DNA of 64,000 bases, from contig JAJRZA010000045.1 in the NCBI GenBank assembly GCA_024275485.1, positions 1-64,000 of the forward strand, given 5' to 3'. The position numbers and the translations under genes are program-made. This document shows, piece by piece, positions 36,639 through 39,608 of the stretch. The notes below the pieces were generated by a model. It saw nothing but the letters and a program-made list of their open reading frames with translations. It was not told the origin of the DNA and did no database searches. The first letter of the stretch is position 1. The number at the start of each line of letters is the position of its first letter. Origin of the DNA: Candidatus Krumholzibacteriota bacterium. Its GTDB lineage: Bacteria > Krumholzibacteriota > Krumholzibacteriia > LZORAL124-64-63.

Positions 36639-36938
36639 ATGGCTATTGAAAGACTCGTAGGTTTGTTCGTCACAGATGACGACTTGTATCAAAAATACCG
36701 AGAAGGAATGATCCCAATTTTACATTCGTACGGTGGGGGCTTTGGCTACGATTTCAAAGTTTCCGATGTCCTGAAAAGTGAGGTTGAATCACCAATCAAC
36801 CGTATCTTCACAATTTATTTTGAAAACGAAGAGGCCCTGAATTCATTTTTTTCAAATGAAGAATATTTAGAGATTCGAAACAAATATTTTGAATCATCTG
36901 TTTCGGCCATCACTACCATCGCAAAATATGTGCGGTAA
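36639..36938 (+). CDS. DUF1330-like small protein
   Basis: The 99-residue soluble protein looks like a dimeric alpha-beta barrel of the DUF1330 type. It has an N-terminal strand, a helix containing YREGMIPIL, a central GGGFGYDF turn, and the IYFENEEALNSFFSNEEY segment typical of these folds. No catalytic role is established for the family. ACAGGAGATAGAC gives a strong ribosome site. The second half is markedly AT-rich compared with nuo genes, hinting at separate ancestry. It is flanked by the degenerate stretch and the selenoprotein gene. Confidence 0.75.
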   Translation: MAIERLVGLFVTDDDLYQKYREGMIPILHSYGGGFGYDFKVSDVLKSEVESPINRIFTIYFENEEALNSFFSNEEYLEIRNKYFESSVSAITTIAKYVR

Positions 36939-37084: not shown

Positions 37085-39085
37085 ATGAAACCTCTGCACC
37101 GGATTCTCATCCTGATCCTTGTCCTGCTGACGGCCATTCCCGCCGTGGCGCAGGTGCCTCGTTCTGTTTTTGTCGAGATGGGCTCGGCCACCTGGTGATC
37201 ATACTGTCCGCGCGCTCGCGCAGGTCTTGCGGTCATGCACGATCATTACGACACCATCGAATTCGATTCCGTGGAATATATGGCCACCTCCGGTGGATTG
37301 AGTTGTCCCGACAGCGATGCCCGCATGGCGTATTACGGCAACAACGGCTTGCCGCACTTGCTTTTCAACGGTGGCGGCATGCTGGTGGGTGCCGGCACTG
37401 ATGTTATCGACGGCAGTGTGTACCACCCCATCGTTCAGAGCCTGTTGGCTGATGCCACACCGCTGAAAATGTCCATCAGCAGCTTTAGTTTTGACGGGCA
37501 AAATGCCCATGTAACTGTGGATCTGGAGCTCGAAGGTGATCTGGCCGATATCAGCCAGACCCGCCTGCGGGTGGCGGTGCTGGAAGATGACCTGATATAC
37601 AGCAGCGTTAACTACAACAATATCCTGCGCGATATGCTGCCGGATCAGGCCCTGACCATCAATACGGCCGGTCAAGCCCAACAGATCACCATCAATTTCT
37701 CCTCTGACCCCGGTTGGGATCCTACCAACATGCGTCTGATTGCCTTTGTGCAGGACGACAGCAACAAGGAAATTCTGCAGAGTTGCAATTCCCTGCCGGC
37801 TCCCGATTATTCCTTGCGTTATTACGTTCTGGGTGAAACCGTCCTGATCGGCAGCGGCCAGATTGCTTTCGATCAAAGCGCCCTTTTCAACACCGGCTCC
37901 ATGACCGACACCTACGACATCTCTCTGGATAACAGCAGCCTGCCTGCGGGGTGGAGTGCCTCGTTCTCCCATGGGGGCTCCGATTACACCAACCTGACTG
38001 TGACCCTGGACCCTGATGCGCGGGCGCTGTTCAACGTGACCGTCGATGCCGTTTCCGTCGGCGGTGGTGAAGTCGCCCTGACTCTGCACTCCCAGAGCGG
38101 ACAGACTCCCGACCGCACCATCACTTTCAAGGTCATCACCCCCGATGTCCAGGTCCTGTTGGTGGATGACGATGGGGGTGCCGGCTATGGCGCCCTGTAT
38201 TTTGAACCCGCTATTGCTTCGACCGGCAAATCGGCCGCCACCTGGAACCGCAGCTCCGCGGGTCTTTCAGCCGAGGTGCTCGCCAACTTCGACGCGGTTG
38301 TCTGGCAATGCGGCTGGGCTTTCCCCACCGTAGACGCCGATGACCGGGCAGCCCTGGCTGCCTATCTTGATGGCGGCGGTAACCTCTTCATCACCGGCCA
38401 GGATATAGGCTGGGAAATGTACGATAACGGCGGAGCCTCCGTGGTCTGGTACAACACCTACCTGCACGCCACCTACATTAGCGATGATACCAACCTGCTG
38501 AACCTGCAGGGTGTGCACGGTGACCCCATCACCGATGGGCTGATTCTCGGCATCTCCGGTGGCGATGGCGCCAACAACCAGCAGTATCCCAGCGACATCG
38601 ACCCTCGCGGGGACGGCGCCTCGACCATTCTGACCTACGATTCCTTTCGCAATGGTGCCATCAAGGCTGACTCCGGTGGGCACAAAGTCGTCTACCTGGC
38701 TTTTGGATTTGAGGCCATCAACAACGCGGCGGATCGAGAAGTTCTCATGCAGGGTATCATCGGCTGGTTGTTGCCTGGTGAGTCTGCGGTCCCCGGTGAT
38801 TTGCCCGGCGCCATTGCTCTGCTCGGCAACGTGCCCAATCCCTTCAACCCCCAAACTGATATTCATTTCAGTGTTAGCCGGGAAACCAACGTCAAGTTGG
38901 GTTTGTACGACGTGAAGGGACACCTGGTGCGCATGCTGGATGCCGGAGTTCTCACACCAGGCGATCACAGTGTGCTTTGGGACGGCAACGACCAGGTCGG
39001 CCGCGCCATGCCTTCAGGCACCTACTTCGCCCGTATCCTGGGCGAGGGGCAGTTGAAGGCGGTGAAGATGATGTTGGTGCGCTGA
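37085..39085 (+). CDS. Secreted thioredoxin-fold (Omp28-like) selenoprotein with type IX-style sorting domain
   Basis: Read through the TGA at 37196-37198, the gene encodes 666 residues in one unbroken frame. Residues 1-22 are a clear signal peptide ending AVA. A redox motif W37-U38-S39-Y40-C41-P42 follows, where the TGA sits exactly at the first Cys of the CxxC of Omp28/thioredoxin-like proteins. A Gly-Leu-Pro (about 78-80) suits the cis-Pro loop. Middle regions are beta-rich with LLVDDDGG near 355, found in many exported FCB proteins. The last 80 or so residues form a FlgD-like/type IX sorting domain (FNPQTDIHFSV, WDGNDQVGRAMPSGTYFAR). A SECIS-like hairpin follows the TGA. AGGAGA precedes the ATG. 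Conventional gene calling starts at 37235 and loses the signal and motif. A plain nonsense mutation is the alternative. Confidence 0.8.
37196..37245 (+). promoter_or_regulatory. Bacterial SECIS-like element after the in-frame TGA
   Basis: Starting at the TGA, the RNA can form a lower stem (TGATC 37196-37200 with GATCA 37241-37245) and an apical stem CGCA (37219-37222) / TGCG (37228-37231). The apical loop is GGTCT (37223-37227). The loop G lies 24 nt after the TGA. E. coli fdhF uses the same GCAGGTCT apex. The middle of the stem is imperfect. It would recruit SelB for selenocysteine insertion. Confidence 0.7.
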
Positions 39086-39168: not shown

Positions 39169-39393
39169 TCAGATCTGTTCCACAGCCCTGACTTCGGGAA
39201 TGGCTGCCTTCATGCGGGCTTCGATACCCTGCTTGAGGGTCATCAAGCTCATGGGGCAGTTGCCGCAGGCGCCATTCATGCGCACCAGTACGGTTCCGCT
39301 GCCCTCGTTGAAATCGATGAATTCAACATCACCACCGTCGGCCTGCAGGGTGGGGCGGATTTCATCCAGAACAGCTTCGATCTTCTCACGCAT
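39169..39393 (-). CDS. NifU-like (Nfu) iron-sulfur scaffold protein
   Basis: The 74-residue protein consists of a single NifU C-terminal domain, a scaffold or carrier for [4Fe-4S] clusters. The signature LQADGGDVEF and the cluster-binding pair Cys43-Cys46 (GACGNCPMS) are present. The ATG at 39393 is preferred because AAAGG precedes it at good distance; an in-frame ATG at 39408 gives 79 residues. It probably helps supply the many Fe-S clusters of complex I, which is an inference from function only. It shares a terminator region with the convergent selenoprotein gene. Confidence 0.93.
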   Translation of the reverse strand: MREKIEAVLDEIRPTLQADGGDVEFIDFNEGSGTVLVRMNGACGNCPMSLMTLKQGIEARMKAAIPEVRAVEQI

Positions 39394-39608
39394 GGCGTAG
39401 CCTTTCATTGAGAAAACAAGGATTGTCGATTCCTTCCATTAGTTAAAAGCTAAGTGACCCAAGCAGGATGTCAACCCTTGGTTGGAAGCGAAGCATTATT
39501 GTTGGACCTGGTGAAATGCACCGACTTAAGGTTGTGCCCAAAGGTGGCTTGCCCTATGATTCGCTCCACCTTCATCCTACACGAGCAAAGAAAGCGCACG
39601 AGGCTTCC

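Follow-up and report, generated by a model that had tools for sequence, protein, structure and literature searches.

A predicted Omp28/HBP35-like selenoprotein of Krumholzibacteriota and a proposed SECIS whose position appears to differ between two selenocysteine clades of its family

Omp28-related proteins carrying selenocysteine (Sec) are represented among curated protein models by NF045500, which corresponds to the hypothetical protein GOS_C with its UxxC motif, according to the available portions of two accounts (PMC13188914, PMC2398784). Besides, HBP35 from Porphyromonas gingivalis binds hemin and has a thioredoxin motif and a conserved C-terminal domain, according to the available portion of its description (PMC2907840). 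For the bacterial SECIS (bSECIS), the available part of one source gives a consensus with a loop of 3-9 nt that has G in its first two positions, a stem of 4-16 bp, a spacing of 16-37 nt and a minimum free energy (MFE) of -7.5 kcal/mol or lower (PMC13188914). The gene considered here lies in a window of 64,000 nucleotides (the whole stretch of DNA that was analysed) from a Candidatus Krumholzibacteriota genome. It shares with NF045500/GOS_C a relationship to Omp28 and a thioredoxin-like fold bearing UxxC with Sec first, as in the NF045500 description, and differs from them in a score far below the cut-off and in its fusion to a FlgD_ig/Por-tail C-terminus. NF045500 is the best NCBIfam match of the protein, at 63.8 bits against a cut-off of 200, and no protein match in this genome passes that cut-off. 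Since NF045500 and GOS_C have been described, this kind of protein is already known; the two groups of sequences compared below, A and B, are outside the curated model, and the open-access literature searched yielded no publication on them.

The features of the gene are collected in Table 1. Pfam Omp28 (PF11551) barely passes over residues 81-232 (35.1 bits, gathering cut-off 34.9), and the match to the type IX sorting tail (TIGR04183) is equally narrow. The predicted N-terminal structure is a thioredoxin-like domain (pLDDT 80.8), for whose 240 residues HBP35 (5y1a) and Omp28 (2r2c) are the closest solved folds, HBP35 being the best PDB match (E 9.2e-12, TM 0.68). HBP35 likewise joins a thioredoxin-like motif to a conserved C-terminal domain, as far as the available part of its description goes (PMC2907840), but it is only 18% identical, it has Cys where Sec stands here, and the likeness is one of fold and sequence. 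The product is probably an exported, secreted or surface-located Omp28/HBP35-like thiol-disulfide oxidoreductase with a UxxC site, a redox function being suggested because a thioredoxin fold and the UxxC motif occur together.

Table 1. Features of the predicted selenoprotein gene, with positions in the window; hairpin numbering counts bases after the TGA.
Feature	Coordinates	Strand	Details and basis
Predicted selenoprotein gene	37085..39085	+	666 codons, ATG 37085 to terminal TGA 39083-39085, one internal TGA; frame analysis
Probable signal peptide, residues 1-23 (MKPLHRILILILVLLTAIPAVAQ)	37085..37153	+	sequence inspection
Thioredoxin-fold/Omp28-like domain, about residues 24-235	37154..37789	+	Pfam, predicted model, PDB match
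In-frame TGA, predicted selenocysteine 38 of UxxC motif U38-S-Y-C41	37196..37198	+	TGA in group A 20/20, Cys in 35 homologues
Small GC hairpin of the MFE structure, immediately 5' of H2	37210..37221	+	partly conserved: pairing in 68.8% of cells, a value reached by 3/500 shuffles
H1, apical hairpin CGCA-GGTCT-TGCG, mutually exclusive with H2	37219..37231	+	present here, poorly conserved
H2, proposed SECIS	37223..37244	+	arms 37223-37230/37237-37244, loop 37231-37236 (GGUCAU); MFE, pair conservation, compensatory changes
GU of H2 loop (+34/+35), opening Val codon +12	37232..37233	+	group A 20/20, group B 0/22, Cys 0/35
C-terminal FlgD_ig/Por_Secre_tail-like sorting domain, residues 600-647	38882..39025	+	PF13860 38.2 bits; TIGR04183 23.4 bits, cut-off 23

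The internal TGA stands in the motif ATW-U-SYCP and is in phase with the whole frame, as an earlier reading made from the sequence alone had proposed. Homologues were sought with stops read through. Two of them, which align along almost the entire length at 69% and 68% identity, retain the TGA, and differences from the nearest relative are enriched at third codon positions on both sides of it (3/0/14 before, 37/16/66 after). Within the family-rank group, 30 of 38 genomes gave matches at E<=1e-20, each of these 42 matches containing a single internal TGA, and in the phylum the same holds for 22 of the 23 matches at E<=1e-25 (18/80 genomes), the remaining match having none and Cys instead. An alignment of 79 loci comprised the clade of this gene (group A), with TGA in all 20 rows, 22 rows of paralogues with TGA (group B, which includes G000:C17 from this genome), 35 rows with Cys and two rows in no group (L079, with Ser, and the second L070, with TGA). 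Group B as aligned covers 22 of its 25 family-rank matches, G001:C111, G022:C344 and G004:C25 being absent. An in-frame UGA is hence conserved among homologues and aligned to Cys in others, which is the pattern sought in a bacterial selenoprotein.

The genome also encodes selA (449.5 bits), selB (330.6 bits), tRNA-Sec (69.5 bits) and selD, and so holds the complete SelA, SelB, SelD and tRNA-Sec set looked for in a bacterium with selenoproteins. Given the alignment of TGA with Cys in homologues and this Sec gene set, which bear out the sequence-only reading of the codon, the TGA at 37196-37198 almost certainly encodes selenocysteine. The genetic code is not globally changed, since TGA terminates 12 of the 24 long ORFs examined, and global recoding of TGA was rejected.

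Some further observations concern the surroundings of the gene and the wider family. The neighbours at 36639-36938 and 39169-39408 (- strand) encode a small DUF1330-like protein and a protein with a NifU-like domain, with no evident selenoprotein link. The selD gene (L123, G000:C1:20138-21055) contains one in-frame TGA, so that selenophosphate synthetase is probably a selenoprotein itself. The closest Cys homologue (L116) belongs to a genome, G037, that retains selA, and its Cys therefore does not reflect selA loss. Moreover, a Phycisphaerae contig (L070) holds a Cys homologue and an adjacent copy with TGA near position 303, at the same active-site position (AMW-U-GACGSAG), a possible sign of Sec use in that lineage.

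We propose that the gene product is an exported Omp28/HBP35-like thioredoxin-fold selenoprotein, and that SelB with Sec-tRNA(Sec) would decode the UGA at 37196 as selenocysteine. SelB would be recruited by a hairpin within the coding sequence, H2 (GGUC-U-UGC-[GGUCAU]-GCA-C-GAUC), whose loop presents G-U at +34/+35, and the finished protein would bear its UxxC redox site within a thioredoxin fold and also carry the C-terminal sorting domain. H2 resembles the bSECIS consensus, in the portion of PMC13188914 available, in its small apical loop with an early G and in a stem and spacing within range (7 pairs and one mismatch, 32 nt), and differs from it in its borderline stability here and in a loop of 5 or 6 nt among homologues. 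Its energy in this gene is -6.4 kcal/mol alone and -7.9 kcal/mol with flanks, against the model limit of -7.5; -7.8 kcal/mol or lower is reached in 19 of the 20 group A sequences, L089 being the exception, where H2 is missing in the registers tested. A hairpin by itself proves nothing here and comparison must decide, because the published bSECIS model, applied to 300 random in-frame positions, gives -7.5 kcal/mol or lower at 163 and even attains the -9.8 kcal/mol of this gene at 85. The Rfam search reported no SECIS, the region is not more stable than shuffles (z 0.08 for 37196-37245, and -0.09 and 0.39), and RNAalifold on the gapless group A alignment did not recover H2.

The comparison within group A, gapless over +1 to +54 in the alignment, used three registers of the stem. 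In the 6-nt-loop register +25..+32 pairs with +39..+46; in the 5-nt-loop register the upper four pairs are shifted by one (+32 now opposite +38, the others likewise) and +42 is bulged; in the third the whole 3' arm is shifted by one. With the best register for each of the 20 homologues, 147 of 160 standard pairs form, against 127.2 +/- 3.0 when the 3' arms are permuted (0/2000 reach 147), a covariation result that depends on three registers picked after seeing the sequences and is set against a permutation control given equal register freedom. If only the 5-nt register is allowed, 75.0% of the cells are paired (52.5% at the next best slide) and 20 cells show double changes, compared with 9.0 +/- 2.0 in shuffles (0/500), while with the 6-nt register fixed the 68.1% of paired cells is barely above shuffles and the -1 slide has more covariation. 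A synonymous-codon null gave p<0.05 for H2 in 7 of 20 group A genes (median 0.085), and a weak result for H2 alone in this gene (14/200). The GC hairpin just upstream shows some compensatory changes of its own and may assist the SECIS or merely reflect Arg/Ala codons. On these comparisons, H2 rather than the other hairpin of the region is very probably the SECIS, and the explanation as a whole, an exported Sec protein decoded via H2, seems to us highly likely.

That other hairpin, H1, was the one put forward in the sequence-only reading. Its letters were found at 37219-37231, and the first G of its loop GGUCU does lie 24 nt after the TGA, inside the model range of 16-37 nt. We consider it unlikely that the SECIS is H1, with its loop at +25, and that H2 only arises as a side effect of those letters. 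Folding of 37196-37245, a check of the kind suggested there, went against H1: the RNA favours H2 both by itself and in context, the MFE structure contains H2 (GGUC.UUGCG-GUCA-UGCA.GAUC) and H1 alone reaches -2.7 kcal/mol, although the two are equal in stability in L093, L118 and L095. The suggested comparison of homologues gave a divided answer: the fixed columns of H1 exceed column shuffles (67.5% of cells paired, 0/500), but all four pairs of its stem, the minimum in the bSECIS model, form in just 3 of the 20 TGA homologues, the closing pair is impossible in 7/20, a +3 slide pairs better (72.5%), and the register-free total of 54/80 pairs is matched by 389 of 2000 permutations. Besides, the synonymous-codon null is passed at p<0.05 in 1/20 genes (median 0.383), and GGUCU covers Gly-Leu codons; among the five nearest Cys homologues, all have Gly +9 and four have Leu +10. 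H1 is thus disfavoured as the SECIS.

The same reading had held such a hairpin unlikely by chance, which is true of the exact pattern, as in the window ORFs examined a perfect 4-bp stem with a GGNNN loop at a spacing of 16-37 comes after 136 of the 13,206 in-frame codons and after 1 of the 109 Cys codons, but not of the published bSECIS model, which is unspecific. The lower stem TGATC/GATCA that it added is present in letters (37196-37200/37241-37245) and was rejected, being unconserved, with TC at +1/+2 only in this gene among the 20 group A rows. A bacterial SECIS directly downstream of the TGA, within 37196-37245, is therefore retained from that reading, with H2 probably in the place of H1.

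A switching element that alternates between H1 and H2, using both folds, is very improbable. The two do share +25 to +32, cannot coexist and have close energies in several relatives, but H1 is unable to close in 7 of the 20 homologues that keep the TGA. There is hardly any chance that the TGA is a true stop, by nonsense mutation or error, and that the protein begins at ATG 37235, where standard ORF calling places a 616-aa ORF, given that every group A homologue has the identical TGA, that Cys aligns with it elsewhere, that the coding pattern is present on both sides and that a restart would cost the signal peptide and the active site.

With H2 as the proposed SECIS of group A, the paralogues of group B offer a second comparison within the family. 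The loop GU at +34/+35 of all group A sequences has its counterpart at +19/+20 in group B (22/22; group A 0/20, Cys 0/35), and both motifs start a Val codon, +12 in group A and +7 in group B. Conservation of the protein might by itself retain a Val, but none of the 35 Cys homologues examined has Val at the codon concerned. As the group B GU lies exactly five codons earlier in 22/22 sequences, two Sec clades within a single family differ in where the predicted SECIS is placed. The hairpin of group B, UUCCGC-[GGUC]-GCGGGA, or UCCGC-[CGUGC]-GCGGA where Arg replaces Ala, has 84.9% of cells paired, and it is less well supported than its loop motif, because the synonymous test gave p<0.05 in 5 of 22 genes, there is little variation at most pairs, and RNAalifold gave a different fold for the gapless group B alignment. 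One locus of the same genome (L054, G000:C17:38100-41400) combines an Omp28-like Sec domain (ADN-U-PYCP) with FG-GAP repeats, ASPIC/UnbV and FlgD_ig, has the loop GU at +19/+20, and is a candidate second selenoprotein of this genome.

A protein tree, made with the Sec column masked and with the short L083 left out, separated group A (support 95) from group B (100), with Cys rows between, and requires two Sec/Cys changes; in a second tree, from which L072, L081 and L082 were dropped for their long branches, group A had a support of 92. Forcing A and B together, as for a single Sec origin, was not rejected (AU p 0.111). Two gains of Sec, or a single gain together with losses and a shift of the SECIS, would both fit these results, and we give somewhat less than an even chance to the view that Sec arose twice at one active-site position, with each new SECIS formed around its own valine codon. 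If that view is true, a SECIS can arise at, or move to, a site exactly five codons away while the Sec residue stays.

Standard gene calling cuts such genes short at the Sec codon, and, since selA was found in 78 of the 80 species genomes of the phylum, the secreted redox proteins of these bacteria are probably often mis-annotated. The protein is otherwise ordinary in kind, and the interesting part is the relocation of the SECIS, with two clades that share the Sec position but have their SECIS loops separated by five codons, and with Cys homologues that have neither motif. Overall, groups A and B allow tests of how SECIS elements arise or move within coding sequence under protein constraint.
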